Assembly (NCBI GenBank): GCA_000585075.1
Contig: JEMY01000034.1
Coordinates: forward strand, 83,804 to 147,803
Direction: 5' to 3'
DNA: 64,000 bases
Origin: Candidatus Accumulibacter regalis
Lineage (GTDB): Bacteria; Pseudomonadota; Gammaproteobacteria; Burkholderiales; Rhodocyclaceae
Shown here: one piece after another, positions 8,710 through 30,608 of the stretch
Layout of the letters: each line of letters starts with the position of its first letter
Position numbering within the stretch: the first letter of the stretch is position 1
The notes under the pieces: generated by a model
What the model was told of the DNA's origin: nothing
Database searches by the model: none
What the model saw: the letters and a program-made list of their open reading frames with translations, nothing else
Position numbers and translations under genes: made by a program

Positions 8710-8800
8710 ACAATGCCTCCTGTTGTTCGTTGGCAGCAGCCTGCGTAAGGAATGCAGCAGCTAAGGACAATCGCCAGATAACCGACCGTAGCCAGTGGAG

Positions 8801-9060: not shown

Positions 9061-9083
9061 AACCGCCTCCCGGCGGTTTTTTT
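9061..9083 (+). terminator. Hairpin with T-tract upstream of the capsid gene
   Basis: AACCGCC-tccc-GGCGGTT followed by TTTTT. A perfect 7-bp stem in terminator form. It would stop or attenuate transcription entering from the protease side. Confidence 0.6.
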
Positions 9084-9093
9084 ACGCCCCTCG

Positions 9094-9115
9094 AACCCGC
9101 CTCGTGCGGGTTTTT
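9094..9115 (+). terminator. Second hairpin with T-tract directly upstream of the capsid gene
   Basis: AACCCGC-ctcgt-GCGGGTT followed by TTT, ending 16 bp before the capsid ATG and next to its TGGAGAT ribosome site. It could be a terminator or an mRNA leader hairpin. Confidence 0.5.
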
Positions 9116-9131
9116 GCTTTTGGAGATCCAC

Positions 9132-10433: not shown

Positions 10434-10491
10434 GCCCCTGGTGGGGCTGCGATGCCTCGCTTCGCTTTCCGCTTTCTGATCCCCACAGGAG

Positions 10492-10875: not shown

Positions 10876-10883
10876 AGAACGTC

Positions 10884-12364: not shown

Positions 12365-12780
12365 TGACGGCCGACGACATTCTCGCTGCCGCGCGGCAGT
12401 GCCTCGGCACGCCGTTTCGCCACCAGGGGCGGCTGCTCGGTTCTGGTCTGGACTGTGCCGGAGTGGCGATCCACGTCGCACGCCAGATCGGCGTCGGGCA
12501 TCTCGACGTTTCCGGTTACGGGCGCACGCCGGCCAGCGGCCAGTTGGAGCACTCGCTCGATAGCCAGCCATGTCTGGAGCGCGTCGCAATGGTCGACGAC
12601 CGGCTTCCCGGTGATCTGCTCTTGATGCGCTTTGCGGGCGACCCGCAGCATCTCGCGATTACCGCCGGCGACACCCTCATCCACGCCTACGAATCGGTAG
12701 GCCAGTGCTGCGAGCACCGGCTGTCGAGACTGTGGGCGGCGCGCATCGTGCAGGTCTATCGCTTCCGGGGGATCGAATGA
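12364..12780 (+). CDS. Phage NlpC/P60 peptidase (GTA gp14-like)
   Basis: 138 residues from ATG 12364. Catalytic Cys in GSGLDCAGVAIHVARQIG and His in DPQHLAITAGDTLIHAY; matches TIGR02219 (RcGTA g14, similar to lambda K). A tail-associated peptidoglycan peptidase for DNA entry. The ORF-track version from 12253 is extended into the previous gene. Active-site residues are present, so the enzyme may still be functional. Confidence 0.88.
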   Translation: MTADDILAAARQCLGTPFRHQGRLLGSGLDCAGVAIHVARQIGVGHLDVSGYGRTPASGQLEHSLDSQPCLERVAMVDDRLPGDLLLMRFAGDPQHLAITAGDTLIHAYESVGQCCEHRLSRLWAARIVQVYRFRGIE

Positions 12781-15700
12781 GCAGCGGCGGGCAGGTGGTT
12801 GGCGGACTCGTCGGGGCGGTGGCCGGCTTCTTCCTCGCCGGCGGCAGCCCAAGCGGCGCGCTGTACGGTGCGCAAATCGGAATGACGCTCGGCGGCTACC
12901 TCGATCCGCCCAAAGGGCCGACCGTCAATGGCCCGCGGCTCAACGACCTGTCAGTCCAGACCAGCACCTACGGTGCGGTCATCCCGCGCGTCTACGGCAC
13001 GGTGACGGTCAACGGCAACGTTTTCTGGCTGGAGAACAACCGGCTGAAGGAAACGGTCACCCGCAAGAAGTCCGGTGGCAAGGGCGGCGGAGGCAAGACG
13101 ACCACGCGCACCTACACCTACTCGGCGACCTTTGCTGTCGGCCTGTGCCAGGGGCCGATCGTCGGCGTGCGCCGCATCTGGGTCGGACCGGATCTGATCT
13201 ACGACGCGGGATCTTCGGACCCCGATACGCTCGCGGCGAGCAACGCGGCGGCCAGCGGTTTCCAGGTCTACCTCGGCACCGACAACCAGGCGGCGGATGC
13301 GCGCATGCAGGCGACGCTCGGTGTGGCCAATACGCCGGCCTGGCGCGGGCTCGCCTACCTCGTGTTCTACGACCTGGCTTTGGAGCGCTACGCCAACAGT
13401 CTGGCCGGTGCGCAGGTCAAGGTCGAGTTGGTCGAGCAAGGCGTGGTCGGCGGGCCTGCCGACGTGAGCTTCTTTTCTCTGCCGAGTTTGACGTCGCACT
13501 CGGGGCCCTTGTGGGATGGGGTTGATTGGTACGGCGTGATCTTGCTCAACACCTCAACCGCGAGGATGGTGACATCGCCGGACATGGTGTCGTGGACTCA
13601 AATCGCCACCATGCCCGCGCGGTCATGGTCCCGGATTCTCTATCACCAGGGGGTGTACATCGCCAGCGCGCCGACGACACCTTCGTTCTCTGGCGCAGGC
13701 GTCGCCACCTCAAGCGACAAGGTGAACTGGGTGGTTCGCTGGAGTGGGTCATTCGGCCGCTGGACTTTGAAATGGATCGTTCCTGGCAACGGCGGCGTTT
13801 TATTCATTGAGGGTCAACAAGGAACGGATGGCAACAGCGCTGCTGGAACACGTTCAGTCCTTCTGGATGTCAATTTCGCGCTCGTGAACTACGGCTGGAT
13901 TGTTCCGAACTTCGATTGTGCCAATTCGCAACCGTGCCATAACGGCGCGGTATTCATCGTCGGAGGGAATGTGGGGGCCGTGCCGCGGCTCTTCATATCC
14001 ACCACAGGCGTGGGTACTTGGTCGGAACAAGCCGTCCCGGCTGGCGTTTCCCACATCTACGGGATCTGTGCCTTCGGATCATCGTCGTTGCTGATGGCGG
14101 CATTTGAGCAGAGCACCAATACGGGCAAAGTGGCCGTATCGACCGACTCGGGTGTCAGCTGGAGTGCATGGGTCAATCTGCCGCCTTGTCTCGGGGTGGG
14201 CGGATGGCGAAATCCGAACTGGAACGGCGCTGAATTCTTCCTCTGCGAACACGGCACCTCGCAATGGGCGACGAGCCCGGACGGCGTGAACTGGGAGGCG
14301 CACACGACAACCGTCGGCCTGCCGACCCACCGGCCGGACTCGTTCCAGAAAGGCTGGAACGGGTCGGCCTGGGGCTCCTTCAGCCACGAAGTCGGTGGGG
14401 CATTTCTGTTCACCTCGGCGACCAGCGGCATCACGCCGACCGATACGTCGTTGGGCGCCATCGTTTCCGCCGAGTGTCTGAAATCGGCCCTGCTGAGCAG
14501 CAGCGACATCGATGTTGCGTCGCTGACTCAATCGGTGCGCGGTTACCGCGTGGGCAGCATCGGCGCGATCCGGGCGGCGCTTGAACCGCTGCAGGCGGCC
14601 TGGCCGTTCGACGTGGTTCAGCACGGGTATGTGATCCGCTTTGTTGCCCGCGGAGGGGCGCCGGTCGTCACGATTCCCGCGGCGGACCTGGACGCGCGGG
14701 GCGCAGGCGACGAGCCGGGGGTGCAGATCACGACCAGTCGGGAGATGGATTCGCAGCTTCCGCGCCGGGTCACGGTGCAGCATCTGGATTACGACCGGGA
14801 GTACAACGCCGGCACGCAGTACGCAGAACGTCTCAATACGGCGGCGATCAACGCCCTGGTGGTGGATCTGCCGATCGTGCTGACGGCGACCGAGGCGGCC
14901 GGCAAGGCGGAAGTGCTGCTCTACCTGTACTGGCTGGAACGTTACGACGTTTCCGTCACCCTGCCACCGACGTACAACCCACTCGAACCGGGCGACGTGG
15001 TGACGCTGGTCACGCCCGAGGGTGACGTCAGCCTGCGCCTGACGGCGATCCATTACACCAGCGACGCGCGGATTGAGTGCCAGGCGAAATACGCCCGCGC
15101 GGCGATCTACACGCCGACTGCGGTCGGGGCCTCGCCGGCGGTCATCGGGACGACGACGGTCACGCCGATTGGCGCCTCGGTGTATGTGCTGATGGACGTG
15201 CCGATGATCAGCGCGGCACAGTCCGGCCCGTCGTTCCTGGTGGCGATGACCGGCACACTGGCGGGGTGGCGAGGCGGCGTGCTGATGCAGTCGACCGATG
15301 CCGGCAGCACCTGGACGACTCTGCAGGACTTCGGGCCACCGGGCTCGGCGCTGGGGATCTGCACGAATAGCATCGGCGAGGTCGAGCCGCGGATGATCGA
15401 CAACGCCAGCCTGCTTAATGTGACCTTGACGCAAGGCGCGCTCGACAGCGTGACACAACTCGCCCTGCTCGGCGGCGCGAACCACTTCGCGTACGGGGCG
15501 GACGGGCGCTGGGAGATCATCGCGGCGCAGACTTGTACGCTGGTGAGCGGCACGAGCTATGTGCTGCAGAACCTGCTGCGCGGGCGGTTCGGCAGCGAAT
15601 GGGCGATGGGGCTGCACGCGGTCGGTGATGCGCTGGTGCTGCTCGACACCGCCGATGTCGCAGCGATCGCGACGAGCTCCGGGGCGATCGGCCTGTCGTA

Positions 15701-16121
15701 CCTGTATCGCGGCGTGACCGTCGATCGGGACATCAGCACCGACGCCAACCGGGCCTTTGCGTACCAGGGGATCAATCTCAAGCCGCTGTCGCCGATCGCG
15801 CTGACCGGAAACCGGGACCATTCGAGCAATGATTGGTCGTTGTCCTGGATTCGGCGCACGCGCGACGGCGGCGAGTGGCGGGACCACGTCGATGCGTCGC
15901 TCGCCGAGGCATCCGAGTCGTATGCCATCGACGTTTACGCCGACGGCAGCTATGCGACGGTCAAGCGGACGATCACGGCGAGCGCTCCGTCCTGCGTCTA
16001 CACCAGCATCGACCAGGTCAGCGACTTCGGCGCCAACCAGGCGACGCTGTATCTCAAGCTCACTCAGATCTCGGCCACCGTTGGTCGGGGATATCCGCTC
16101 ACCACGTCCATCACGAGGTAG
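12777..16121 (+). CDS. Phage host-specificity (tail tip J / GTA gp15-like) protein with Asp-box insertion
   Basis: 1114 residues from ATG 12777. Residues 1-230: glycine-rich N-terminus then RLNDLSVQTSTYGAVIPRVYG and AQVKVELVEQG, standard for the family. Residues ~230-550 are an insertion with repeated S-x-D-x-x-x-W signatures (TSPDMVSWT, TSSDKVNWV, STDSGVSWS, TSPDGVNWE), i.e. Asp-box repeats of sialidase-type beta-propellers. The family sequence resumes at VRGYRVGSIGAIRAALEPLQ and continues through a phage-tail_3-like domain to SYATVKRTI. It contacts the host receptor. The inserted propeller may bind glycan; sialidase activity is not implied, since no catalytic set was identified. Confidence 0.87.
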   Translation: MSSGGQVVGGLVGAVAGFFLAGGSPSGALYGAQIGMTLGGYLDPPKGPTVNGPRLNDLSVQTSTYGAVIPRVYGTVTVNGNVFWLENNRLKETVTRKKSGGKGGGGKTTTRTYTYSATFAVGLCQGPIVGVRRIWVGPDLIYDAGSSDPDTLAASNAAASGFQVYLGTDNQAADARMQATLGVANTPAWRGLAYLVFYDLALERYANSLAGAQVKVELVEQGVVGGPADVSFFSLPSLTSHSGPLWDGVDWYGVILLNTSTARMVTSPDMVSWTQIATMPARSWSRILYHQGVYIASAPTTPSFSGAGVATSSDKVNWVVRWSGSFGRWTLKWIVPGNGGVLFIEGQQGTDGNSAAGTRSVLLDVNFALVNYGWIVPNFDCANSQPCHNGAVFIVGGNVGAVPRLFISTTGVGTWSEQAVPAGVSHIYGICAFGSSSLLMAAFEQSTNTGKVAVSTDSGVSWSAWVNLPPCLGVGGWRNPNWNGAEFFLCEHGTSQWATSPDGVNWEAHTTTVGLPTHRPDSFQKGWNGSAWGSFSHEVGGAFLFTSATSGITPTDTSLGAIVSAECLKSALLSSSDIDVASLTQSVRGYRVGSIGAIRAALEPLQAAWPFDVVQHGYVIRFVARGGAPVVTIPAADLDARGAGDEPGVQITTSREMDSQLPRRVTVQHLDYDREYNAGTQYAERLNTAAINALVVDLPIVLTATEAAGKAEVLLYLYWLERYDVSVTLPPTYNPLEPGDVVTLVTPEGDVSLRLTAIHYTSDARIECQAKYARAAIYTPTAVGASPAVIGTTTVTPIGASVYVLMDVPMISAAQSGPSFLVAMTGTLAGWRGGVLMQSTDAGSTWTTLQDFGPPGSALGICTNSIGEVEPRMIDNASLLNVTLTQGALDSVTQLALLGGANHFAYGADGRWEIIAAQTCTLVSGTSYVLQNLLRGRFGSEWAMGLHAVGDALVLLDTADVAAIATSSGAIGLSYLYRGVTVDRDISTDANRAFAYQGINLKPLSPIALTGNRDHSSNDWSLSWIRRTRDGGEWRDHVDASLAEASESYAIDVYADGSYATVKRTITASAPSCVYTSIDQVSDFGANQATLYLKLTQISATVGRGYPLTTSITR

Positions 16122-16124
16122 ACC

Positions 16125-16781
16125 ATGGCCAGCAGCACCACCCATCTGGATCTCATCGCGCAATCGCAGTCCTCCAAGGAAGTGACGGCCAACGCGCTGT
16201 TCGATGCCGGCAGCCCGGCGACTCTGTTCGGGCGGCGCGCCAGCTTGTGCTCCGGCCTCAACTGGTTCTACTACGGCGGCGTCATGATGGTCGATGGCGT
16301 GCTGACCGCGATTGCCAACAACACGGCGGCGCTGGTACTTTCGCCGAGCACGACGAATTACATCGAGGCGACGCGCGCGGGCGTGGTGTCGAGGAATACC
16401 GTGGGCTTCACCGGCGGATCGATTCCGCTCTACACCGCCGTCACCGGCACCGCCACGGTCACGAGCGACACCGATCAGCGCGCGTGGGTCGCGCCGGCGT
16501 ACCTGCCCGGCAGGGCGAGTGTCGCGGTGACAGCGGCTGACGTAACGCTGACGGCAGCGGACGCGCGATGTCGCTACCTGACCACTACCGGCGTGCTCAC
16601 GGGCAACCGCAGCGTGATCGTTCCGGATAGCTGGGAGGGCATCGTCTACTGCAGCAACAGCGGTGCGTTTGCGATGACGTTCAAGACAGCAGCGGGAAGC
16701 GGCGTGGTGGTGGCGCAGGGAAAACGTGCGCTGCTGCTGGCCGATGGGACCAATGTCGTTCGCGTGACGCCGGATACATAA
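16125..16781 (+). CDS. Phage minor structural protein (DUF2793-like)
   Basis: 218 residues beginning MASSTTHLDLIAQSQSSKEV, a start typical of proteins encoded after the tail tip in GTA-like siphophages. The rest is Thr/Ala-rich and beta-strand-rich (GNRSVIVPDSWEGIVYCSNS, GKRALLLADGTNVVRV), suggesting a fibre or tail decoration. Three bases after the tail-tip stop, so co-transcribed. Function otherwise unknown. Confidence 0.7.
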   Translation: MASSTTHLDLIAQSQSSKEVTANALFDAGSPATLFGRRASLCSGLNWFYYGGVMMVDGVLTAIANNTAALVLSPSTTNYIEATRAGVVSRNTVGFTGGSIPLYTAVTGTATVTSDTDQRAWVAPAYLPGRASVAVTAADVTLTAADARCRYLTTTGVLTGNRSVIVPDSWEGIVYCSNSGAFAMTFKTAAGSGVVVAQGKRALLLADGTNVVRVTPDT

Positions 16782-17552: not shown

Positions 17553-18248
17553 ATGGCAAAATTTCTGAACACCAGTGCTACCAACTACTTCCTCGAAGAA
17601 CTCATCAAGGGCGCCAAAGACCGGCTCATCCTGATCAGCCCGTTTCTGAAACTCAATGATCGCATCAAGGAACTCCTCGCAGACAAGAACCGCTTAAAAA
17701 TTGACGTACGTATTGTCTATGGCAAGAGTGAACTCCAGCCTGAGGAAATCAACTGGCTGAAGGGTCTGACCTACATTCGCACGAGTTTCTGCAAGAACCT
17801 CCATGCCAAGTGCTACTTGAACGAGGAGCTTTGCATCATCGCCAGCCTCAATCTCTACGAGTTCAGCCAAGTCAACAACAACGAAATGGGCGTGCTGATT
17901 CGCCGCACCGACGACGCCGAGCTCTACAAAGACGCCTACGAGGAAGCGCAACGCATCATTCGTATCAGCGAAGAGGTTCGCATTTCTCTGGAACGAGTAT
18001 CGAGTGAGACCGAAAGCAAGACCGAGATGGAGGACACGTCAGCCGAAAAACTGACCACTTCGAAGCTTGCCAAACGATTGGGAATGAAAACCAACGAGCT
18101 TACGGAAAAGTTCGTGCAATCCGGCTTGTTGGAGTCGCGGGAAGGAAAGCATTACCTCACTGACAAGGGCAAAGAAGTCGGCGGTGAGTTCCGAATGAGT
18201 CCCAAGTTCGGTCCGTTCTTCCTCTGGCCGGATACTCTCCAACCGTGA
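17553..18248 (+). CDS. Phospholipase D-like (HKD) protein with C-terminal winged-helix segment
   Basis: 231 residues. The N-terminal half matches the PLD superfamily: RLILISPFLKL, then one catalytic H-x-K motif (LHAKCYL near residue 84) and an SLNLYEFSQVNNNEMGV strand with the conserved Asn/Glu. A single HKD implies a dimer, as in the Nuc endonuclease subfamily. Residues ~165-215 (TTSKLAKRLGMKTNELTEKF, HYLTDKGKEVGG) resemble a winged helix. Likely DNA-directed. Its GC content is lower than the surroundings and it begins the defence island; a defence nuclease role is an inference. Upstream 17278-17552 holds no gene and would carry its promoter. Confidence 0.75.
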   Translation: MAKFLNTSATNYFLEELIKGAKDRLILISPFLKLNDRIKELLADKNRLKIDVRIVYGKSELQPEEINWLKGLTYIRTSFCKNLHAKCYLNEELCIIASLNLYEFSQVNNNEMGVLIRRTDDAELYKDAYEEAQRIIRISEEVRISLERVSSETESKTEMEDTSAEKLTTSKLAKRLGMKTNELTEKFVQSGLLESREGKHYLTDKGKEVGGEFRMSPKFGPFFLWPDTLQP

Positions 18249-18682: not shown

Positions 18683-20320
18683 TTGAGTCAGGAAGGGCAA
18701 CTCCTCGACCAGAAGTCCTTGCGAGCAGTGACCGGCAAGACGGCAGACTGGAACGAAATCGCCAAGGATTGCATTGCCTTTGCCAATGCAACGGGCGGTC
18801 GGCTACTGCTGGGCATCGAGGACGGGCAGGATGCGCCGCCAGCCGGTCAACAGATCCCCGCCGACCTGCCCGACACCGTGCGGCGCAAGCTGGCCGAGCG
18901 CACCGTCAACCTTGCAGTGCTGGCCGATGTCGTCACCGCCCCCAATGGCGGCCAGTACATCGAGTTGCGCGTTCCCCGGGCCATGGCCGTGGCCTCCACC
19001 ACTGACGGCAGGTATTTCCTGCGCGTGGCCGATCAGAGCAAGCCCGTCACAGGCGACGACGTGATGCGACTGGCCAGCGAGCGTTCCGCGCTACCGTGGG
19101 ATACGCAGACCACCCTGCATTTTCCGCGCGTCGAGGCGGATGCCGCCAAGCGCGACAAGCTGCTGCAGGCTTTGCGCGCCTCTGAACGTGTCAAAGCCTC
19201 TGTCAAGGAAAAGACCGACGACGAGCTGCTCGACCACTATCAGCTCGCGCGGGGGCACGACCTCACCAACTTGGGCGTGCTGTGCCTTGGCCGCCAGCAT
19301 CACCGCGCCCAACTGACCACGGCACCGGTCATCCAGTTCATCAAGTACGACGAGCGCGGCCAGAAGGTCAACAAGCTGGTGTGGGACGACCACACGCAGA
19401 GCCCGATGGAGCTGATCGAGGCAGTCTGGCTGGAGGTGCCGGATTTCCGCGAGCGGTACGAACTACCCGATGGCCTGTACCGCCAAAACGTGCCCGCCTT
19501 CGACGAAATCGTGGTGCGTGAGCTCCTGGTCAACGCACTGGTGCACCGCCCCTACACCCAGCGCGGCGACATCTTCCTGAATCTGCACCCGGACCGACTG
19601 GAGGTGGTCAACCCCGGCCCGCTGCCACTGGGTGTCACGCCGCAGAACGTGCTGCACACCACCGTGCGCCGAAACGAGCACCTGGCCCGTCTGTTCCACG
19701 ACCTGAAGCTGATGGAACGTGAAGGCAGTGGCTTCGACAAGATCTTCGAGGTGCTGCTGTCGCAAGGCCGCCCCGCACCGGAGCTGATCGAAACGCACGA
19801 TCGCGTGCAGGTCACCGTACGCCGCCGCATCCTGAAGCCCGAGGTCATCGACTTCATCGCCAAGGCAGATCAGACCTACCAGCTCGCCCAGCGCGAGCGT
19901 ATCGCTCTGGGCCTGCTGGCCCAGCACGACGCACTGACCGCCCGCGAGCTGGCAACCACCCTCGAACTGCCATCGGTCGAAGCACTCCAGCCCTGGCTCA
20001 AGCGCCTGCTGGACTGGCATCTGGTGCAGAGCGCCGGCCGCACCCAGGCCACGCGCTATTTTGTTGATTCAGGCCTGCTGCGCAGCCTCAAGTTCACCGG
20101 CGAGACCACTCTCAAGCGCATCGAGCCGCATCGTTTGGCGGCGCTGGTGCTTGAAGACCTGCAGCGTTACCCCGAATCCGCAATCAGCGACATCCATAGA
20201 CGCGTTGGCGGGGAGATCCACCCCAAGCAAGTCAAACGCGCGCTGGAAGACTTGATCGGGCGGGGGGCGGTGCGCTTCGAAGGCAACTACCGCTGGCGGC
20301 GGTACTGGGCGGTGTCATGA
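18683..20320 (+). CDS. AlbA_2 (Schlafen-like) DNA-binding / GHKL-ATPase regulator
   Basis: 545 residues from TTG 18683. Residues ~10-130 are an AlbA_2 domain (TADWNEIAKDCIAFANATGG, RLLLGIEDG). Residues ~270-380 are an HATPase_c_4 module (VRELLVNALVHRPYTQRGDI, GSGFDKIFEVL). The C-terminus has winged-helix segments (LGLLAQHDALTARELATTL; ISDIHRRVGGEIHPKQVKRA). Such proteins are annotated as putative transcriptional regulators and are frequent partners of type I R-M and other defence loci. It sits 154 bp before hsdR and could regulate the operon or act itself. No interruption is seen. Confidence 0.85.
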   Translation: MSQEGQLLDQKSLRAVTGKTADWNEIAKDCIAFANATGGRLLLGIEDGQDAPPAGQQIPADLPDTVRRKLAERTVNLAVLADVVTAPNGGQYIELRVPRAMAVASTTDGRYFLRVADQSKPVTGDDVMRLASERSALPWDTQTTLHFPRVEADAAKRDKLLQALRASERVKASVKEKTDDELLDHYQLARGHDLTNLGVLCLGRQHHRAQLTTAPVIQFIKYDERGQKVNKLVWDDHTQSPMELIEAVWLEVPDFRERYELPDGLYRQNVPAFDEIVVRELLVNALVHRPYTQRGDIFLNLHPDRLEVVNPGPLPLGVTPQNVLHTTVRRNEHLARLFHDLKLMEREGSGFDKIFEVLLSQGRPAPELIETHDRVQVTVRRRILKPEVIDFIAKADQTYQLAQRERIALGLLAQHDALTARELATTLELPSVEALQPWLKRLLDWHLVQSAGRTQATRYFVDSGLLRSLKFTGETTLKRIEPHRLAALVLEDLQRYPESAISDIHRRVGGEIHPKQVKRALEDLIGRGAVRFEGNYRWRRYWAVS

Positions 20321-20474: not shown

Positions 20475-23255
20475 ATGACGCCGGAAACCAAGGCACGCCA
20501 GCAGATTGACCAGAAGCTGGGGCAAGCCGGCTGGTTCATCCAGGACATGAAGCAGCTCAATTTGGCGGCAGGCCTGGGCGTGGCCGTGCGCGAATACCCC
20601 ACCGACAGTGGCCCGGCCGACTACGTGCTGTTCGTCAACCGCCGTGCGGTGGGCGTGATCGAAGCCAAGAAGGACAGCGCGGGCGAAAACCTGACCGTGG
20701 CGGAAGCTCAGACCGAGCGCTACGCCACCGCCAATCTCAAATGGCGCAAGGACAACACGCCCCTGCGCTTCCTGTTCGAGGCCACTGGCCAGATCATCCG
20801 CTTCACCGACAACGCCGACCCCGCGCCTCGTTCGCGCGAAATCTTCCACTTCTTTAAGCCAGAAACCCTGGACGCCTGGCTGGCGCAGCCTGACACCCTG
20901 CGCCGGCGCTTGGCCGAGCAAATGCCCGTGCTGCCTGAAAGGAACCTGCGCGACTGCCAGATCAGCGCCGTCACCGGGCTGGAGAGGTCTCTTGCGCTGG
21001 ACAAACCCCACGCCCTCGTGCACATGGCCACCGGCGCTGGCAAGACCTTCACCGCCATCACCTCGGTCTATCGCCTGCTCAAGTTCGGCGGCGCCAAGCG
21101 CATCCTGTTTCTGGTCGATACCCGCAACCTCGGCAAACAGGCGCATCAGGAATTCATGGCCTACACACCGCCGGATGATGGCCGCAAGTTCACCGAGCTC
21201 TACAACGTGCAGCGGTTGGCCTCACCCAACATCGACCCGCACTCGCAGGTGTGCATCAGCACCATCCAGCGCATGTACTCCATCCTGAGCGGCGAGCCGA
21301 TTGACGAATCGGCCGAAGACGTGTCGCTCAGCGAAGTGCAGCAAACCGCCAAACAGGAAAAGTTCGTCCGCTACAACCCGGCCGTGCCGGTGGAAACCTT
21401 CGACTTCATCATCATCGACGAGTGCCACCGCAGCATCTACAACCTGTGGAAGCAGGTGCTCGACTACTTCGATGCCAGCCTGATCGGCCTCACCGCCACG
21501 CCCGACAAGCGCACCTTCGGCTTCTTCAACGAGAACATCGTCGCCGAATACACCTACGAGCAGTCGGTGGCCGATGGCGTCAACGTCGGCTACGACGTGT
21601 ATGAGATCGAAACCGAAATCACCCAGAAAGGCGCCGAGCTCAAGGCCAAGGAATGGGTGGACCACCGTGACCGCCAAACCCGCAAGAAGCGCTGGGGTGA
21701 AACCGAAGAAGACACGGCTTACACCGGGAAGGAGCTGGACCGCTCGGTGGTCAACGTGAGCCAGATCCGCAAAGTGATCCAGGCCATGAAAACCGCCGTG
21801 GAAACGCAGATCTTCCCGACGCGCAAAGAGACGCCCAAGACCCTGATCTTTGCCAAGACCGACAGCCACGCCGACGACATCATCAACATCCTGCGCGAGG
21901 TCTACGGTCAAGGGAATGCCTTCTGCAAGAAGGTCACTTACCGCGCCGAAGAAGACGCCGAAAGCATCCTCAGCAGCTTTCGCAACGACTACAACCCGCG
22001 CATTGCCGTCACCGTGGACATGATCGCCACCGGCACCGACGTCAAGCCACTGGAAGTGCTGCTCTTCATGCGAGACGTGCGCAGCAGGGGCTACTACGAG
22101 CAAATGAAGGGCCGAGGCGTGCGCAGCCTGGATGGCGACAGCCTCAAGCGCGTCAGCAACAGCGCAGAAGGCGCCAAGACGCGCTTCGTGCTGATCGACG
22201 CCGTGGGCGTGGAGAAATCCCTCAAGACTGAAAGCCGCCCGTTGGAGAAGAAGCCCGGCGTGGCGCTGAAAGACCTGTTGCAAGGCGTGGCGATGGGCAG
22301 CCGCGACGACGACACCGTGCTCTCGCTCGCCAATCGCCTGCTGCGTCTGGCCAAACAACTGGACGACAAGGCGCAGGTGCGCATCGAAAAGGCCAGCGGT
22401 GGTATTCCCATGGCTGAACTGGGCAAGGGTCTGATTGCCGCGCTGAACCCCGACGCCATCGTGCAAGCCGCGCTGGCCACCGCCAGGGCCAAGGGCATCA
22501 CCCGCAGTGAAGACACCCTCCTGCCGGAAGAGATTGAAGCCGCCCGCGCCGAACGCGTGGCCGCCGCCTGCGCGCCCTTCGACCAGCCCGCGTTGCGTGA
22601 CGAGATCGAAAGCGCCCGCCGCGAGCGCGAGCAACTCATCGACCACATCAACCTGGATCAGGTGACCTTCTCCGGATTTTCCGAACAGGCCGAAGCGCAG
22701 GCGAAAGCGGTAATTCAAAGCTTTGCCGACTATTTGAAGCAGCACAAGGACGAAATCGCCGCACTGGACTTTTTCTACCAGCAGCCCTACCAGCGCCGAA
22801 CACTCACCTTCGACATGATCGAAGACCTGCACGAGCGCCTGAGCAAGCCGCCACTGATGCTCACCACCGAACGCCTATGGAATGCCTACGCCCGCGTGCG
22901 GGCCACCCAAGTGAAAGGCAGCGACAGCAAACGCCAGCTCACCGATCTGGTGTCACTAGTGCGCTTCGCCCTGGGGTTGGACGGTGAGCTCAAACCCTTC
23001 GCCGACGAAGTGGACAAGCGCTTCCAAGCCTGGATCTTCCGCCACAACGCCCAGCGCGGCACTGCCTTCGCGCCGGAGCAGACTGAGTGGCTGCGCCTGA
23101 TGAAAGAGCACATCGCCAGCAGTTGCAGTATCAGCCGCGACGACTTTGATTACGCCGAATTGGCCGACAAGGGCGGGTTGCAGAAGGCTTGGGGGCTGTT
23201 TGGCAAGGAGCTGGATGGGCTCATGAAGGAGATGAGTGAGGAGTTGGTGGCGTGA
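20475..23255 (+). CDS. hsdR: Type I restriction enzyme, R (motor/nuclease) subunit
   Basis: 926 residues from ATG 20475 with a strong AGGAGG 7 bp upstream; the ORF-track start at 20436 is not supported. N-terminal PD-(D/E)xK nuclease (GPADYVLF...AVGVIEAKK, ~45-65), then an SF2 translocase: Walker A MATGAGKTFT (~185), DECH box IIIDECHRS (~313), LTATP motif III, and a late helicase motif DMIATGTDVKPLE. It translocates DNA and cleaves unmodified DNA with HsdM and HsdS. All key motifs are intact. The stop overlaps the GTG of hsdS by 4 bp. Confidence 0.93.
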   Translation: MTPETKARQQIDQKLGQAGWFIQDMKQLNLAAGLGVAVREYPTDSGPADYVLFVNRRAVGVIEAKKDSAGENLTVAEAQTERYATANLKWRKDNTPLRFLFEATGQIIRFTDNADPAPRSREIFHFFKPETLDAWLAQPDTLRRRLAEQMPVLPERNLRDCQISAVTGLERSLALDKPHALVHMATGAGKTFTAITSVYRLLKFGGAKRILFLVDTRNLGKQAHQEFMAYTPPDDGRKFTELYNVQRLASPNIDPHSQVCISTIQRMYSILSGEPIDESAEDVSLSEVQQTAKQEKFVRYNPAVPVETFDFIIIDECHRSIYNLWKQVLDYFDASLIGLTATPDKRTFGFFNENIVAEYTYEQSVADGVNVGYDVYEIETEITQKGAELKAKEWVDHRDRQTRKKRWGETEEDTAYTGKELDRSVVNVSQIRKVIQAMKTAVETQIFPTRKETPKTLIFAKTDSHADDIINILREVYGQGNAFCKKVTYRAEEDAESILSSFRNDYNPRIAVTVDMIATGTDVKPLEVLLFMRDVRSRGYYEQMKGRGVRSLDGDSLKRVSNSAEGAKTRFVLIDAVGVEKSLKTESRPLEKKPGVALKDLLQGVAMGSRDDDTVLSLANRLLRLAKQLDDKAQVRIEKASGGIPMAELGKGLIAALNPDAIVQAALATARAKGITRSEDTLLPEEIEAARAERVAAACAPFDQPALRDEIESARREREQLIDHINLDQVTFSGFSEQAEAQAKAVIQSFADYLKQHKDEIAALDFFYQQPYQRRTLTFDMIEDLHERLSKPPLMLTTERLWNAYARVRATQVKGSDSKRQLTDLVSLVRFALGLDGELKPFADEVDKRFQAWIFRHNAQRGTAFAPEQTEWLRLMKEHIASSCSISRDDFDYAELADKGGLQKAWGLFGKELDGLMKEMSEELVA

Positions 23256-24787
23256 GTGATTTGCCGAATGGATGGATTCCAGCAACCCTTGAAGATATTG
23301 CAACTTGGTCGTCTGGTGGTACTCCGTCAAGATCGAATCCTGCGTATTACTCAGGGACGGTTCCGTGGTTCAAAACCGGCGAGCTTGGGCCTCGTATCCT
23401 CTACCGCTCAGAAGAACACATCTCCGATGAAGCCGTCTCTGAGTCAAGCGCAAAGGTCTTTCCGAAGGGCTCCGTTGCGATTGCGATGTATGGCGCAACA
23501 ATAGGCAAGACTTCCATTTTCGGAATCGATGCTGCAACCAATCAAGCTTGTGCTGTAGGTGTTCCCGAGGCAACCAGTGCGGAATTTCTCTATTACTTTC
23601 TGGTGTCGCAGGAAAAAGGGTTCGTGGATGCTGGAAAAGGTGGCGCCCAGCCCAACATTTCCCAAGGGATCGTAAAGGCATGGCCTATTTCTTTGCCACC
23701 TCGTGCAGAACAAACCCGCATCGTCGCCAAACTCGAAGAACTGCTCTCCGACCTCGATGCCGGCGTGGCCGAACTCGAGCTCGCACAGAAGAAGCTGGCG
23801 AAATACCGCCAATCGCTGATGAAAGCTGCCGTGGAAGGCGCGCTCACCGCCGAATGGCGAACACATCACAAGCCAGCAGAAACCGGTGCGCAACTGCTGG
23901 AGCGCATCCTCACCGAACGCCGCACCCGCTGGGAAGCCAAGCAAATCCTCAAGTTCAAGGAGCAAGGCAAAACCCCGCCCAAAGACTGGCAGAAGAAATA
24001 CCCCGAGCCGGTGCGACCGGATACCACCGACTTACCAGACTTGCCGGAGCGGTGGGTGTGGGCGAGCATTGAGCAGATCGCATCCGACGAGCGATACAGC
24101 CTTTCGATAGGCCCATTTGGCAGCAACCTCAAAGTTCCGGACTACCGCGATTCTGGTGTGCCTCTGGTCTTCGTTCGCAATATTCGGTCAGGTAAATACG
24201 GCGGAGGGCACACCAAGTATGTAACCTCAGAGAAAGCCATTGAGTTGAGTGCTCACATTGTTACCGCAGGCGATGTATTGGTCACAAAAATGGGTGAACC
24301 ACCCGGAGACGCAAACGTTTACCCGGACGACCAACCTCCCGCAATCATCACGGCTGACTGCATCAAAATTCGATGCTGGCCTGACCTGATGAGCCCAGTT
24401 TTCTTGAAGTCGGTAGTCAATTCGAACATTGGCAAGCGTCAAATTGAACCAATGACACAGGGTGTAGCGCAGAAAAAAGTCAGCCTTGGTCGATTCAGCA
24501 GCCTTGCCGTCCCTGTTCCGCCGGCTGTAGAGCAGGCATTGATTGTTCGGTTGGTCAACGAAGCGGACCGCGATGCTGCAGAGCAAATCACAGCTATCGA
24601 GCTTTCCCTCAAACAATCCACCGCCCAACGCAAGAACATCCTGCGTACCGCCTTCGCCGGCCAACTGGTGCCGCAAGACCCGAACGATGAACCCGCCAGC
24701 GTGCTGCTCGAACGTATCCGCGCTGAGCGAAACGCATCAGCCTACGCGAAAAACTCGCGCGGGCGCCGCAGACTTCATGAGGTCTGA
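23252..24787 (+). CDS. hsdS: Type I restriction-modification specificity subunit S
   Basis: 511 residues from GTG 23252. Two target-recognition domains, each with typical edges: residues ~1-165 (LPNGWIPATLEDIATWSSGG to KAWPISLPPRAEQTRIVAKL) and ~265-455 (LPERWVWASIEQIA to VPVPPAVEQALIV), separated by conserved coiled-coil spacers (LEELLSDLDAGVAELELAQK). It determines the bipartite recognition site. The TRDs have visibly lower GC than the spacers, as expected for exchanged specificity domains. The next gene, unusually, is an AAA ATPase rather than hsdM. Confidence 0.92.
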   Translation: MSDLPNGWIPATLEDIATWSSGGTPSRSNPAYYSGTVPWFKTGELGPRILYRSEEHISDEAVSESSAKVFPKGSVAIAMYGATIGKTSIFGIDAATNQACAVGVPEATSAEFLYYFLVSQEKGFVDAGKGGAQPNISQGIVKAWPISLPPRAEQTRIVAKLEELLSDLDAGVAELELAQKKLAKYRQSLMKAAVEGALTAEWRTHHKPAETGAQLLERILTERRTRWEAKQILKFKEQGKTPPKDWQKKYPEPVRPDTTDLPDLPERWVWASIEQIASDERYSLSIGPFGSNLKVPDYRDSGVPLVFVRNIRSGKYGGGHTKYVTSEKAIELSAHIVTAGDVLVTKMGEPPGDANVYPDDQPPAIITADCIKIRCWPDLMSPVFLKSVVNSNIGKRQIEPMTQGVAQKKVSLGRFSSLAVPVPPAVEQALIVRLVNEADRDAAEQITAIELSLKQSTAQRKNILRTAFAGQLVPQDPNDEPASVLLERIRAERNASAYAKNSRGRRRLHEV

Positions 24788-24790
24788 ACC

Positions 24791-25984
24791 ATGAAAATCG
24801 AATCCATCCGCCTCAAGAATTTCAAGGCCTTCCGCGATGTGCACTTGAAGGACATCCCGCCCTTTCTCGTCGTCGTGGGCGCCAACGGCACCGGAAAGTC
24901 CACCCTGTTCGACGTGTTCGGCTTCCTGCACGACTGCCTGCGAGGCAATGTCCGCCAGGCGTTGGACAAGCGCGGACGATTTTCGGAGGTGCTGAGCCGG
25001 GGCTGTGATCCGCAGAAGGACACGATACTGATCGAACTGCAATACCGCATGGAGATCACGAAGGTGGAGCGGTTGGTGACGTATTCGGTGGAAATCAGCG
25101 AGGAGAAGGGCTCACCCCTGGTGCTGAAGGAACTACTCCGTTACAAGCGGGGCCGCTACGGCAGCCCCTATCACTTTCTCAGCTTTGCCAAGGGCGAAGG
25201 CTACGCCATCACCAACGAGGAGGAATTCAATAAGCCCGACGAGGAACTGGACCGCGAAACGCAGAAAGTGGCGCCGGACACGCTGGCGATCAAGGGGCTG
25301 GGGCAGTTCGAGCGATTCAAGGCGGCCAGCGCTTTCCGAAGTCTGATCGAGAACTGGCACGTGTCGGATTTTCACATCAACTCGGCACGCGGCCGAAAGG
25401 ACGCTGCGGGTGAAACCGAGCACCTGTCGGAATCGGGCGAGAACCTGCCACTGGTGGCGCGTTATCTGCACGAGCAACACCGGGAAACCTTCGCCAACAT
25501 CTTGACCACCATGGCGCGGCGCGTGCCGGGTGTGTCAGCCGTGGAACCGAGACTGATGGACGACGGCTACCTGACCCTGCGCTTTCAGGATGGCTCCTTC
25601 AAGACACCGTTCCTGGACCGCTATGTGTCCGACGGCACGATCAAGATGTTCGCCTACTTGGTGCTGTTGCACGACCCCAAGCCCCATCCCCTGCTATGTG
25701 TGGAGGAGCCGGAAAACCAGCTCTATCCGCAACTCATGGCAGAACTGGCCGAGGAATTCCGCAGCTATGCCAATCGAGGCAGTCAGGTATTCGTCACCAC
25801 GCATTCGCCGGACTTCCTGAATGCACTGCAACTGGAGGAGGTGTGCTGGCTGGTCAAGCAGCAGGGCTACACGGGCATCCATCGCGCCCAGGACAACCTG
25901 CAGATTGCGGCCTATGTCGCAGAAGGCGATCAGCTCGGTTACCTGTGGAAGCAGGGCTTCTTCGACGGGGCGGACCCATTATGA
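24791..25984 (+). CDS. AAA ATPase (AAA_15/AAA_21, OLD/AriA-like) embedded in the R-M operon
   Basis: 397 residues. ABC-type ATPase of the OLD/RecF-like group: IESIRLKNFKAFRDV start, Walker A VGANGTGKSTLFD (~30), signature-like region around LDRYVSDGTIKMFAYLVLLH (~277-296), Walker B LLCVEEPENQLYPQL (~300), H-loop VTTHSPDFLNAL (~335). No long coiled coil or Zn hook, so it is not RloC or Rad50. The start is 3 bp after hsdS, and the stop overlaps the DUF4276 gene. The ATPase plus TOPRIM-like partner layout matches PARIS (AriA/AriB) and related two-gene systems, suggesting an NTP-dependent sensor controlling an effector. Function is inferred from architecture. Confidence 0.85.
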   Translation: MKIESIRLKNFKAFRDVHLKDIPPFLVVVGANGTGKSTLFDVFGFLHDCLRGNVRQALDKRGRFSEVLSRGCDPQKDTILIELQYRMEITKVERLVTYSVEISEEKGSPLVLKELLRYKRGRYGSPYHFLSFAKGEGYAITNEEEFNKPDEELDRETQKVAPDTLAIKGLGQFERFKAASAFRSLIENWHVSDFHINSARGRKDAAGETEHLSESGENLPLVARYLHEQHRETFANILTTMARRVPGVSAVEPRLMDDGYLTLRFQDGSFKTPFLDRYVSDGTIKMFAYLVLLHDPKPHPLLCVEEPENQLYPQLMAELAEEFRSYANRGSQVFVTTHSPDFLNALQLEEVCWLVKQQGYTGIHRAQDNLQIAAYVAEGDQLGYLWKQGFFDGADPL

Positions 25985-26562
25985 TGGAATTGGTATTCCT
26001 GCTCGAAGAGCCCTCGGCCAAGGCCATGCTGGAGTCCTTGTTGCCGCGCCTTCTGAAGGAAGATATTCAGTACCGTTGCGTCCCGTTCGAGGGCAAGCAA
26101 GACCTGGAAAAGCAGCTGACGCGCAAGCTCCGCGGGTATCAGAACGAACAGGCGCGCTTTATTGTGCTACGGGATCAGGACAGCCATCCCGATTGCACGG
26201 CAGTCAAGGACAAATTGCGCGACCTGTGCGCACAATCAGGCAGAGCGGATCGTTGCCTGGTTCGAATCGCGTGTCGCGAACTGGAGACGTTCTATTTGGC
26301 CGATTTAAAGGCAGTCGAGCAAGCGCTGGCTATCGAGGGCCTCGCCACAAAACAGCTCCGCAGGAAATTCAGGGCACCCGATCGCTTGAGTAGCCCGAGC
26401 AAGGAACTGAAGGCACTGACGAACCAGCGCTATGAAAAGATCGTGGGTTCACGCGCCATCGGCCAGTATCTGGACATCGACAACGATCGCTCCAGCAGCT
26501 TCCGGACTTTGATTGCCGGCATCCGGCGCATGGAACACGAACTGCTCGAGTCAGAAGCATGA
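25981..26562 (+). CDS. DUF4276 TOPRIM-like effector candidate
   Basis: 193 residues from ATG 25981 (or ATG 25984). DUF4276 family: LVFLLEEPSAKAMLESLLP at the N-terminus with the conserved Glu pair (E9/E10), LRDQDSHPDC with a D-x-D (D65, D67), and CRELETFYLAD (E100/E102). E plus DxD is the metal-binding layout of TOPRIM folds such as AriB and OLD nucleases. It is translationally coupled to the AAA ATPase upstream and to hsdM downstream (ATGA overlap). Likely a nuclease held by the ATPase; the target is unknown. Confidence 0.8.
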   Translation: MMELVFLLEEPSAKAMLESLLPRLLKEDIQYRCVPFEGKQDLEKQLTRKLRGYQNEQARFIVLRDQDSHPDCTAVKDKLRDLCAQSGRADRCLVRIACRELETFYLADLKAVEQALAIEGLATKQLRRKFRAPDRLSSPSKELKALTNQRYEKIVGSRAIGQYLDIDNDRSSSFRTLIAGIRRMEHELLESEA

Positions 26563-28019
26563 ATACTTCCAGTCTCGTGCAGAAAGTCTGGAACTTCTGC
26601 CACACCTTGCGCGATGACGGGGTGGGTTATGGCGATTACCTCGAACAGCTCACCTACCTCCTGTTCCTGAAGCTTGCGCACGAATACGCGCGGGAGCCCT
26701 ACAACCGCGACACCCGCATCCCCAAGGGCTACGACTGGCCCAGCCTCACCAGCAAGGTGGGCGAACCGCTGGAAGCGCATTACCTGGCCACGCTGCACAA
26801 ACTGGGCCAGGAATCGGGCATGTTGGGCGCCATTTTCTTCAAGGCGCAGAACAAGATCCAGGATCCGGCCAAGCTCTCGCGCCTGGTGCAACTGATCGAT
26901 GCGGAGAGCTGGATCAGCCTGGGTGCCGACACCAAGGGCGACCTGTACGAAGGCCTGCTGCAGAAGAACGCCGAAGACACCAAGAGCGGCGCGGGCCAGT
27001 ACTTCACCCCGCGCGCGCTCATCGAAGCGATGGTGGCCTGCGTTCGGCCCGAGCCGATGAAGACCATTGCGGACCCGGCCTGTGGGACGGGCGGCTTCTT
27101 CCTGGGCGCCTACAACTGGCTGACTCGCCCCGGCGCCAAGCTGGACAAACGCCAGAAAGAGTTCCTGCGCGACAGGACATTTCACGGCAACGAGATCGTG
27201 CCCAACACGCGCCGCATGTGTTTGATGAATCTCTTCCTGCACAGCATCGGTGAACTCGATGGCGAACCCTTGGTAGAGCGCTCCGACGCCTTGATCACCG
27301 AGTCCAGGCTCAAGGTGGACTACGTGCTGGCCAATCCGCCCTTCGGCAAGAAGAGCAGCATGACCATCACCAACGAAGAGGGTGAGGAAGACAAGGAGGC
27401 GCTTACCTACGAGCGGCAGGATTTCTGGGAAACCACGTCGAACAAGCAGCTCAACTTTCTGCAGCACATCGTCAGCATGTTGAAGGTGGACGGTAAAGCG
27501 GCGGTGGTCTTGCCGGATAACGTGCTGTTTGAGGGCGGCGCTGGCGAGAAGATCCGCCGCAAGTTGCTGGAGAACTGCGATGTGCACACCGTGCTGCGGC
27601 TGCCTACGGGCATCTTCTACGCGCAAGGCGTGAAGGCGAACGTGGTGTTCTTCGATGCCAAGCCCAAAAACGGCCAGATCCACACCAAGGGGCTCTGGTT
27701 CTACGACTTGCGCACCAACAAGCATTTCACGCTGAAGACACGCACTCTCAAGCTGGACGACTTGCAGGATTTCATCACCTGCTACAACCCGGAAAACCGC
27801 CACGAGCGCGTCGCCACCGAACGTTTCAAGTTATTCAGCTACGAAGACTTGATGGCCCGTGACAAGGCCAGTCTCGATATCTTCTGGTTGAAAGACGACA
27901 GCTTGGACAAGCTCGACGATCTGCCGCCGCCGGATGTCTTGCAGCAGGAGATCATTGAGCACCTGGAGGCCGCATTGGCTTCATTTCGGGATGTCGCCGC
28001 CGGATTGCGGGGTAAGTGA
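26559..28019 (+). CDS. hsdM: Type I restriction-modification methyltransferase subunit M
   Basis: 486 residues from ATG 26559, overlapping the DUF4276 stop. N-terminal helical HsdM domain (VWNFCHTLRDDGVGYGDYLE), SAM-binding motif I ADPACGTGGFFLGAY (~170) and catalytic NPPFG (~259) of N6-adenine methylases; C-terminal helices (LQQEIIEHLEAALASFRDVA). Forms the M2S methylase with HsdS. It is the last gene of the operon and is followed by a strong terminator at 28212. Placing M last, after the AAA/DUF4276 pair, means modification is translated downstream of both. Confidence 0.93.
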   Translation: MNTSSLVQKVWNFCHTLRDDGVGYGDYLEQLTYLLFLKLAHEYAREPYNRDTRIPKGYDWPSLTSKVGEPLEAHYLATLHKLGQESGMLGAIFFKAQNKIQDPAKLSRLVQLIDAESWISLGADTKGDLYEGLLQKNAEDTKSGAGQYFTPRALIEAMVACVRPEPMKTIADPACGTGGFFLGAYNWLTRPGAKLDKRQKEFLRDRTFHGNEIVPNTRRMCLMNLFLHSIGELDGEPLVERSDALITESRLKVDYVLANPPFGKKSSMTITNEEGEEDKEALTYERQDFWETTSNKQLNFLQHIVSMLKVDGKAAVVLPDNVLFEGGAGEKIRRKLLENCDVHTVLRLPTGIFYAQGVKANVVFFDAKPKNGQIHTKGLWFYDLRTNKHFTLKTRTLKLDDLQDFITCYNPENRHERVATERFKLFSYEDLMARDKASLDIFWLKDDSLDKLDDLPPPDVLQQEIIEHLEAALASFRDVAAGLRGK

Positions 28020-28419
28020 TGCACGGTGCTAGCGGTCCGTCGTCGGCATCGGGCTGGCAGTGAATGTGCTGAAGGTCCTGGCGTCTATACGGAGCGGTCG
28101 GACGGCGTTTCTCAATTATGGCCCGCCGGACGTTTCTGCTCTTGCCCTCGCCAGTACTCACATGCCCCGATAGCGAGTTTGTTTCCAGGAAACCACGCGC
28201 CACCAGACAAGAAGACCAACCCGTCATCGGGTTGGTCTTTTTTTTGCTTACTGGCGCGGGTTCGTGGGGAAGCCCGGGGACTTCGGTGATTCGCACGGCG
28301 ACTGCGATCTGGCTGTTTTCACTCTCTCCTGGCCATTCTTCTGTCCGGCCTCCCACCCGTCGGCGACCAGAAGTCCACGAGCGCCTCCAACGCAACCATC
28401 GCCAATTGGCTGCCTTCGG
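28020..28419. other. Intergenic region after hsdM
   Basis: No intact gene is seen. Contains the hsdM-operon terminator (28212-28246) and then degraded sequence leading into the methyltransferase remnant. The ORFs listed here have no recognisable motif. Confidence 0.5.
28212..28246 (+). terminator. Strong rho-independent terminator of the R-M operon
   Basis: AAGACCAACCCGTCATCGGGTTGGTCTTTTTTTT: a 12-bp perfect stem with 6-nt loop and an eight-T tract, about 190 bp after hsdM. Confidence 0.9.
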
Positions 28420-28681: not shown

Positions 28682-29836
28682 ATGACCAACGGCGATTACA
28701 CCTACATCTGGCAGGCTCCCGATTGGCCGGCCTGGCGCTACGACCTGGCCGCTTTGGCCGGGCCGTTGGCCGACGCCAGCCGTGCCCAGGGTCTGCTCAT
28801 TGGCCGACTGGCCGATGTCGGGATCGCACTGCGGGATCAGGCCAGCCTGACGACGCTGACCGAGGATGTTCTCAAGACCAGCGAAATCGAGGGTGAGCGC
28901 CTCGACGCCGAGTCCGTGCGCTCGTCGATCGCGCGCCGCTTGGGCGTGGACGTCGGAGCGCTGGCGCCAGTCGATCGCCACGTCGAAGGCGTGGTCGACA
29001 TGGTGCTCGATGCGACGGCAGGCTGCGAGGTGGCACTGACACGAGAACGCCTGCTCGGCTGGCACGCGGCCCTGTTTCCGACCGGCTATAGCGGACTCTC
29101 CCCCATTCGCGTGGGAATGCTCCGGGACGACGGGAACGGACCGATGCAGGTCGTCTCCGGTGCCATCGGTCGGCAACGTGTTCACTTCGAAGCGGCTCCA
29201 GCAGAGAAACTCGAGGCCGAATTGGGGCGCCTCATCGACTGGGTGAACGCTGGCAGCGAAGATCACCCGATCCTGAAGGCGGGTCTGGGGCACCTGTGGT
29301 TCGTCACGCTCCACCCTTTCGACGACGGCAACGGGCGTATCGCGCGGGCGCTCGGCGACCTGCTGCTGGCCCGTGCCGATGGTAGTCCGCAACGGTTCTA
29401 CAGTCTGTCGGCGCAAATCCAGCGCGAGCGGCGGGACTATTACGAAATCCTGGAGCGCACGCAAAAGGGTTCTCTCGAGGTGACGGACTGGCTGAGGTGG
29501 TTTCTCGATACCTTGCGGGGCGCGGTCAGCACCGCACAAGAGACCCTGGACGCCGTACTGGTCAAGACGCGCTTCTGGCAGCGCTGGGCCACGACACCGC
29601 TGAACGCGCGGCAGGTGAAACTCCTCAACCGCCTACTCGAGGGATTCGAGGGCAAACTGACCAGCAGCAAGTGGGCGGCCATCGGCAAGTGCTCACCGGA
29701 TACCGCACTGCGCGAGATCAACGAACTGCTCGTCCTGGGTGTGCTGCGCAAGACGCCTGGCGGCGGACGTAGCACGGCATACGAACTCAACAGAGACGCC
29801 ATTAACAATTCATGGTCGGAGATCGCCGGCTGCTGA
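28682..29836 (+). CDS. Fic family protein (class II, DUF4172-Fic)
   Basis: 384 residues. DUF4172-type N-terminus (YIWQAPDWPAWRYDLAALA), inhibitory helix motif TSEIEGE (~65) that obstructs the active site in class II Fic proteins, the catalytic Fic loop HPFDDGNGRIARALG (~210), and a C-terminal winged helix (LTSSKWAAIGKCSPDTALRE). Fic enzymes transfer AMP from ATP to hydroxyls of target proteins; the target is unknown. All catalytic residues (H, D/N, R) are present. Stands alone between the methylase relic and a TA pair on the other strand. Confidence 0.92.
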   Translation: MTNGDYTYIWQAPDWPAWRYDLAALAGPLADASRAQGLLIGRLADVGIALRDQASLTTLTEDVLKTSEIEGERLDAESVRSSIARRLGVDVGALAPVDRHVEGVVDMVLDATAGCEVALTRERLLGWHAALFPTGYSGLSPIRVGMLRDDGNGPMQVVSGAIGRQRVHFEAAPAEKLEAELGRLIDWVNAGSEDHPILKAGLGHLWFVTLHPFDDGNGRIARALGDLLLARADGSPQRFYSLSAQIQRERRDYYEILERTQKGSLEVTDWLRWFLDTLRGAVSTAQETLDAVLVKTRFWQRWATTPLNARQVKLLNRLLEGFEGKLTSSKWAAIGKCSPDTALREINELLVLGVLRKTPGGGRSTAYELNRDAINNSWSEIAGC

Positions 29837-29838
29837 GC

Positions 29839-30333
29839 TCAGGAAACGACGCTGCTCAAACGCAGCATCAGCGTCATCGGATGCGCCGGTGAAACCTGAA
29901 ATCCGTAGTGCTCATAGAATTCCCTGGCCTGGTCATGGAGCGCGTGTACCAGCAAGGCTCTGACCCCGGCGTTCTGCGAAACGATCACCGCCCGCTTGAC
30001 GGCATCTTGCAACAAGGAAGCGCCGAGCTTGATCCCCTGGGCGCGATGATCGACGGCGAGCCGGGCCAGCACCATCACCGGAACGGGGTCCGGCATATTG
30101 CGGCGCACTGAACTCGTGGCCATCTGACGCGAGACAGCACCTGCGGCCATGGCGTAGTAGCCGTAGATGCGGTGCTCCCGATCGGCCACGACAAACGTGC
30201 GGCTCGCCCCGCTCAACTGGTTGGCCATGGCCCGCCGTTTGAGCCACTCGTCGAGCACGGCTTCGCCGCACGCAAAGTCATCCAGACGATGGGCGGCCGA
30301 CAGTGGCTGCGGCGGATTGAGTTGAAGGGTCAT
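29839..30333 (-). CDS. GNAT toxin (TacT-like)
   Basis: 164 residues. Typical TacT start (LNPPQPLSAAHRLDDFACGE, VLDEWLKRRA), then VVADREHRIYGYYAMAAG and acetyl-CoA loop VDHRAQGIKLGASLLQDA, ending with AREFYEHYGFQVSP (the conserved Tyr-rich end). TacT toxins acetylate aminoacyl-tRNA and block translation. ATG 30333 overlaps the antitoxin stop by 4 bp. The stop codon is 3 bp from the end of the convergent Fic gene. Confidence 0.9.
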   Translation of the reverse strand: MTLQLNPPQPLSAAHRLDDFACGEAVLDEWLKRRAMANQLSGASRTFVVADREHRIYGYYAMAAGAVSRQMATSSVRRNMPDPVPVMVLARLAVDHRAQGIKLGASLLQDAVKRAVIVSQNAGVRALLVHALHDQAREFYEHYGFQVSPAHPMTLMLRLSSVVS

Positions 30334-30608
30334 GCCTTGCTGGCGTCGGCTTCCCAGGGCGCCTTGACCGCCATCAGGCGCTCAAGTCCCGGATTGGCGT
30401 CCGGAGGCGCGTCAAGCAGGGCGGTGAACTGCCGGAACTTTTCGGCGTTGAGACTGAAAAAAACCTGATTGATCACCACCGCCTGCGCCTTGTCGCAGGC
30501 GGCTTCGAGCATGAAGTCCGAACGGTTCTTGCCGAGCAACTGAGCAGCGTGATCAATCAGGTCCCGCTGCTCGGGAAGTGCCCGCAGGTTGATGGCGGCA
30601 TCGCGCAT
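30330..30608 (-). CDS. DUF1778 antitoxin (TacA-like)
   Basis: 92 residues. MRDAAINLRALPEQRDLIDHAA is the ribbon-helix-helix start of DUF1778, followed by LLGKNRSDFMLEAACDKAQ and a C-terminal toxin-binding tail (QFTALLDAPPDANPGLERLM). It neutralises the adjacent GNAT toxin and likely autoregulates: GAGAAACTC and TGTGTCTGTTGTG-type repeats lie just upstream (30609-30660). A decayed copy of its C-terminus lies at 30964-31029. Confidence 0.9.
   Translation of the reverse strand: MRDAAINLRALPEQRDLIDHAAQLLGKNRSDFMLEAACDKAQAVVINQVFFSLNAEKFRQFTALLDAPPDANPGLERLMAVKAPWEADASKA

Follow-up and report, generated by a model that had tools for sequence, protein, structure and literature searches.

A candidate HEC-01 defence pair carried between hsdS and hsdM in a type I restriction-modification operon

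PARIS is itself not encoded within an hsd operon, and the MADS system contains the ATPase MAD3 and a small partner, MAD4, together with M- and S-type subunits. PARIS senses Ocr and releases AriB (PMC12707154), and the anticodon nuclease PrrC has been proven to act as an embedded guard, being always linked to a type Ic restriction-modification enzyme that silences it (PMC2610378; PMC12707154). Type I operons also carry other accessory genes, such as rloA and rloB in Campylobacter (PMC2928727) and, in EPEC, DarTG2, which lies between hsdS and hsdR (PMC12255303). HEC stands for Hma-embedded candidate, a term from the guilt-by-embedding preprint (Payne et al. 2024) that PMC12988326 quotes; in the latter article some HECs are reported to be active, HEC-06 by name.

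We analyzed a window of 64,000 nucleotides from Candidatus Accumulibacter regalis, in which a type I restriction-modification operon, entirely on the + strand, has the gene order hsdR-hsdS-AAA-DUF4276-hsdM (Table 1). Overlaps of 4 bp are present at the hsdR/hsdS, AAA/DUF4276 (ATGA) and DUF4276/hsdM junctions, while hsdS and the ATPase gene are separated by a 3-bp gap; the first-pass annotation had described this order and these junctions with every coordinate correct. A GTG at 20436 is a possible earlier start of hsdR, and the best NCBIfam matches of HsdR were PRK11448 and the EcoAI/FtnUII-type HsdR, both under their cut-offs. Among the terminator-like hairpins of the coding strand, the strongest follows hsdM, in a scan where the number of hairpins was not above chance, and this position fits one transcript for the operon. 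We also scanned the hsdR-to-hsdM block for promoter-like sites and found none. Long direct repeats flanking the insert were looked for as well and none was present, so no mark of transposition was found.

Table 1. Features of the operon and of its neighbourhood (window positions).
Feature	Position	Strand	Basis
Phage structural module: terminase small and large subunits, portal, head protease, tail assembly, tail and tail-fibre proteins	3481..16778		
PLD-like protein, upstream of hsdR	17553..18248		
SLFN_AlbA_2 + HATPase_c_4 gene, just upstream of hsdR	18683..20320		
hsdR, type I restriction subunit, EcoEI/EcoAI-like	20475..23255	+	Pfam EcoEI_R_C, ResIII
First 133 residues of HsdR	20475..20873		PADLOC PDLC00302 (PtuA), E 1.6e-21
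hsdS, specificity subunit, two target-recognition domains	23252..24787	+	Pfam Methylase_S, two stretches
Payload slot, hsdS-hsdM	24788..26558	+	Insert of at least 250 bp here in 34/37 relatives sampled by HsdM, content differing
AAA_21 / ABC-SMC-type ATPase of HEC-01	24791..25984	+	Pfam AAA_21, PADLOC HEC-01
DUF4276, predicted OLD-type TOPRIM nuclease of HEC-01	25981..26562	+	PF14103, PADLOC HEC-01
hsdM, N6-adenine methylase subunit	26559..28019	+	Pfam N6_Mtase 1e-66, HsdM_N
Terminator-like hairpin 3' of hsdM, probable transcript end	28209..28242	+	15-pair stem, then T run
DUF4172-Fic protein, downstream of terminator	28682..29836		
GNAT acetyltransferase + TacA-like antitoxin gene, probable toxin-antitoxin pair	29839..30608	-	

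The phage module lies directly upstream of the PLD-SLFN-hsd block, and therefore the defence block may sit at a prophage edge. A stub of the same PLD-like family, its C-terminal 32 residues, stands beside the pair in another genome (L034, 8549-8764). A close relative (665 bits) of the SLFN_AlbA_2 + HATPase_c_4 gene occupies the hsdS-hsdM slot in L175, and Fic proteins, like the one found downstream of the terminator, are also slot payloads in relatives. The PtuA model matching the start of HsdR also covers almost the whole length of a PtuA protein, and the HsdR match may be an artefact of model building.

The 2 genes between hsdS and hsdM were both recognized by PADLOC models of HEC-01, the ATPase by PDLC04144 (E 7e-227, 751 bits, residues 1-396 of 397) and the DUF4276 protein by PDLC04143 (E 5e-94, residues 1-189 of 193). 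Judged by these sequence matches, the pair is HEC-01, a candidate defence system already catalogued in PADLOC. The ATPase and its adjacent DUF4276 partner are both in place here and the embedding in an Hma system is not; that embedding is how the HEC-01 family was discovered and is no functional requirement. In the literature, the word DUF4276 occurred in no open-access paper, and HEC-01 together with PADLOC was likewise unmatched. We then scanned GTDB genomes with DUF4276 alone, which gave 480 relatives, and looked at the loci of the best 80. Results showed an ATPase gene directly upstream of DUF4276 and on the same strand in 80/80 loci, with the 4-bp overlap between the 2 genes in 66 of them, and such a pairing is not due to chance. 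The distribution of the pair is patchy, over many phyla and a few plasmids; Synechocystis PCC 6803 has it on pSYSM (SGL_RS00110/SGL_RS00115). A phage-borne module was considered and rejected, as no match was found among 50,697 phage records and IMG/VR contained one distant match (27%).

The ATPase belongs to Pfam AAA_21 (E 1.7e-32), with a Walker A motif GANGTGKST, whose Lys is K36, and a Walker B motif LLCVEEPE. Its AF2 model (pLDDT 84) was matched by Foldseek to the retron I-A ATPase, Septu PtuA, Rad50, SMC, GajA and OLD ATPase domains. Since PtuA, retron I-A and GajA are nuclease-regulating defence ATPases, the modelled fold supports an ATPase-controlled nuclease. The partner matched Pfam PF14103 (E 1.5e-15) and no other Pfam family, and a sequence-based search detected no related solved structure. 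Its AF2 model has a mean pLDDT of 96.8 and alternating strands and helices: strand 3-8 is followed by E9/E10, and strand 59-65, the third, ends in D65-x-D67. This is the OLD-type TOPRIM core, with a Glu after strand 1 and D-x-D after strand 3, as seen in the predicted model. E9, E10, D65 and D67, previously proposed to form a TOPRIM metal layout, are indeed present and conserved at 97-100% across 81 homologues. The TOPRIM-type fold proposed along with it is likewise supported as a prediction, given that the top Foldseek match was 6nk8_B, from an OLD nuclease of Burkholderia, whose C-terminal region corresponds to its TOPRIM part (E 1.5e-3, probability 1.00, TM 0.51, a loose superposition with rmsd 6.8). 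Fold and residues together suggest that the DUF4276 protein may be a nuclease. Considering both models, an ATPase-gated nuclease is the best-supported mechanism that can be predicted for the pair. Moreover, a high-confidence model with named residues makes DUF4276 biochemistry directly testable.

We asked how the operon itself is organized in other genomes, sampling its relatives by HsdM alone and scoring the 37 that carried R, S and M in this order, with an insert defined as at least 250 bp. An insert was found between hsdS and hsdM in 34/37 operons vs 6/37 between hsdR and hsdS (Fisher p 2.7e-11, a value that is only a guide because related operons are not independent). Nameable inserts were mostly defence or toxin-antitoxin genes. 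Slot payloads were SLFN_AlbA_2 + HATPase_c_4 (L169, L172-L175, L177, L178, L187, L201, L206), GmrSD (L187, L188, L204), Septu (L166, L167), Septu-like/PDC-M62 (L195), PDC-M31 (L170), PDC-M28 (L197), Fic (L198, L202, and also L203, where hsdS was undetected), AbiE (L191, L212), DarTG (L200), Abi_2 (L196), YhcG (L188, L192), Mrr (L190), patatin (L205), ImmA + DUF4411 (L185), DUF3800 (L194) and HerA (L182). Some inserts had no name (for example L208) and a few were short or degraded (L168, L199). What appeared as a single odd operon is in fact part of a pattern, namely one type I operon family in which the slot between hsdS and hsdM almost always holds cargo. The TOPRIM-like partner of the L170 payload, PDC-M31B, has no detectable relationship with DUF4276. 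In L037, a DUF3800 gene (5740-6591) shares the slot with HEC-01 as a tandem payload. The genome of the window itself has a second hsdR-hsdS-x-hsdM operon (L192, G000:C25), whose HsdM is 61% identical and whose payload is a YhcG-type PDDEXK nuclease.

Comparison of close relatives showed how the content of the slot changes. The operon of L166 has an HsdR 90% and an HsdM 92% identical to those of the window, yet it carries Septu in place of HEC-01; between the 2 operons the conservation of HsdM begins at its ATG, and the DNA before this ATG is unrelated. HsdMs of operons bearing HEC-01 are scattered and do not form a clade (AU test p 0.0004), and on this basis we rejected the idea that the pair is inherited together with a single HsdM lineage. 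In the tree of the pair, all embedded copies fall inside one clade of 14 rows that also includes stand-alone pairs. In addition, the HsdM of the window is 96% identical to that of L027, and the pair of the window is equally close to the embedded pair of L027 and to the stand-alone pair of L029. The simplest reading is that whole payloads have been exchanged repeatedly, possibly with hsdS, and recombination in the flanking conserved genes may have been the route. Operons that are nearly the same and carry either Septu or HEC-01 provide natural matched pairs to test whether embedding means functional coupling.

We consider it likely that HEC-01 is a self-contained 2-gene ATPase-TOPRIM defence module, which the slot of the hsdR-hsdS-x-hsdM operon carries interchangeably with many other payloads. 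As one of many such cargoes, it is probably an independent second weapon here and not devoted to guarding the restriction enzyme. In such a mechanism, the ATPase and the DUF4276 nuclease would form one complex, in which the ATPase would sense an infection-linked cue and license or release the nuclease; the latter would then cut nucleic acid (DNA or RNA) and stop phage growth, perhaps by halting the host. The position in the operon would provide expression and mobility shared with the restriction-modification genes, rather than obligate physical coupling.

The first-pass annotation had instead proposed that the pair may be a second layer that fires when a phage inhibits the type I enzyme, with a fixed stoichiometry to M and S. 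As such a guard, the pair would be checked by the enzyme or watch it, and would fire when phage anti-restriction proteins inhibit it, in the way of PrrC with EcoprrI or PARIS with Ocr. Precedents exist for such a role: the type I enzyme to which PrrC is linked keeps it silent and T4 Stp activates it (PMC2610378), and PARIS is an ATPase-TOPRIM pair sensing Ocr (PMC12707154). The embedding is also real. Among the pairs at the loci of the best 80 of the 480 DUF4276 relatives, 6 lie between recognizable hsdS and hsdM genes (L027, L028, L032, L033, L037, L038); in L033, a stop or frame break precedes roughly the final 200 bases of hsdM. Overlapping genes between hsdS and hsdM are therefore conserved in six other genomes, as the earlier proposal had asked of other hsd operons, and an assembly accident or unique insertion is ruled out. 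The 4-bp overlap with hsdM is kept in most embedded copies, which would also fit functional coupling of the pair to the enzyme. On the contrary, 4 more of the 80 pairs adjoin decayed hsd genes and about 70/80 have no hsd neighbour, in a sample made of the closest 80 of 480 relatives and including MAG contigs with missing ends. Next to the identical pairs of L030 and L095, HsdR is reduced to its first 88 residues and HsdS to its last 53; L034 retains 24 HsdR residues; and in L035 hsdM is broken, on a contig that has neither hsdS nor hsdR. All 4 loci nevertheless have an intact pair. The dN/dS between L034 and L095 is 0.058 for the ATPase and 0.095 for DUF4276, indicating purifying selection on intact pairs that adjoin decayed hsd genes. 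In Pseudomonas poae DSM 14936 and P. trivialis DSM 14937, the pair lies between aceK and an hrpA-like gene, and neither HsdR (TIGR00348) nor N6_Mtase (PF02384) was detected in these draft genomes. Stand-alone pairs occur at the same place in three Pseudomonas species (L050, L052, L053; neighbours aceK and the hrpA-like helicase gene confirmed in L053), a possible integration site.

Taken together, unlinked pairs, pairs in genomes where type I genes were not detected and intact pairs beside decayed hsd genes imply that the type I enzyme is needed neither to retain the pair nor to keep it silent, and an obligate dependence on the enzyme is contradicted. Constant linkage to, and silencing by, a type I enzyme as for PrrC is not what we found for HEC-01. 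Moreover, embedded and stand-alone pairs differ by only a handful of diagnostic residues, and many unrelated payloads fill the same slot. Of the earlier claim, the ATPase/TOPRIM-type pair and its conserved embedding stand, but the dedicated guard role and the fixed stoichiometry to M and S do not, considering how many pairs lie outside hsd operons and how many unrelated payloads share the slot. We regard a guard function as unlikely, and nothing in the evidence requires a role of the PARIS or PrrC type.

A broader form of coupling would make the slot a general arming platform, where any payload (HEC-01, Septu, SLFN, Fic and others) is tied to the enzyme's state and fires on its inhibition. As the conserved hsdR and hsdM flank the slot together with hsdS, a recombination event would swap target specificity and payload at once. 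We find this distinctly unlikely. The pair could also be cargo of a selfish or passive kind, kept by its mobility as an addictive or toxin-like module without a real defence role in the host, as its patchy distribution and its fixed chromosomal insertion site in Pseudomonas may suggest; the strong purifying selection on both genes and the largely known or candidate defence genes among its slot companions argue against this, making it very improbable. That the restriction enzyme includes the pair as a subunit, in a multi-subunit type I variant similar to MADS, is barely credible: MAD3 and MAD4 are the best NCBIfam matches of the ATPase (E 4.6e-37) and of DUF4276 (E 7.8e-5), but the scores are far beneath the MADS cut-offs (128 vs 420 bits and 23 vs 160 bits), operons with an HsdM more than 90% identical lack the pair, and most pairs have no hsd gene at all.

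The self-contained HEC-01 module can finally be placed among the known systems. Like MADS, it combines an ATPase of a related family with a small partner; no other MADS gene was found at the window locus, and a weak HMM match is all that links DUF4276 to MAD4. A MAD3-MAD4-like pair was observed in L217 (2302-4313), between DUF1156 methylase-like and DUF499 ATPase-like genes, an Hma-like setting in which no further MADS gene was recognized around it. Class 2 OLD proteins and Gabija GajA also combine an ABC-type ATPase with an OLD-type TOPRIM domain, but in one chain, whereas here 2 genes are involved. The rlo genes and EPEC DarTG2 resemble the window pair as defence or toxin genes inside hsd operons, and differ as payloads; the DarTG2 site is also hsdS-hsdR rather than hsdS-hsdM. 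PrrC, in EcoprrI, is likewise an accessory effector embedded in a type I hsd operon, but it is a single protein, whereas HEC-01 is a pair mostly unlinked to hsd. PARIS has the same architecture of 2 adjacent genes for an ATPase and a TOPRIM-type nuclease, but the TOPRIM of AriB is DUF4435 and the partner in the window is DUF4276 only. The ATPase scored 104 bits against AriA (E 2.6e-30), compared with 751 bits against HEC-01 in PADLOC; membership in PARIS was rejected, the AriA-type AAA_15 not being the best match and a DUF4435 partner being absent, in agreement with the early view that the pair differs from PARIS. The closest likeness is to HEC-01 itself, which both proteins match end to end, as an ATPase with DUF4276 embedded in another defence system, the host system here being a type I restriction-modification operon instead of Hma.
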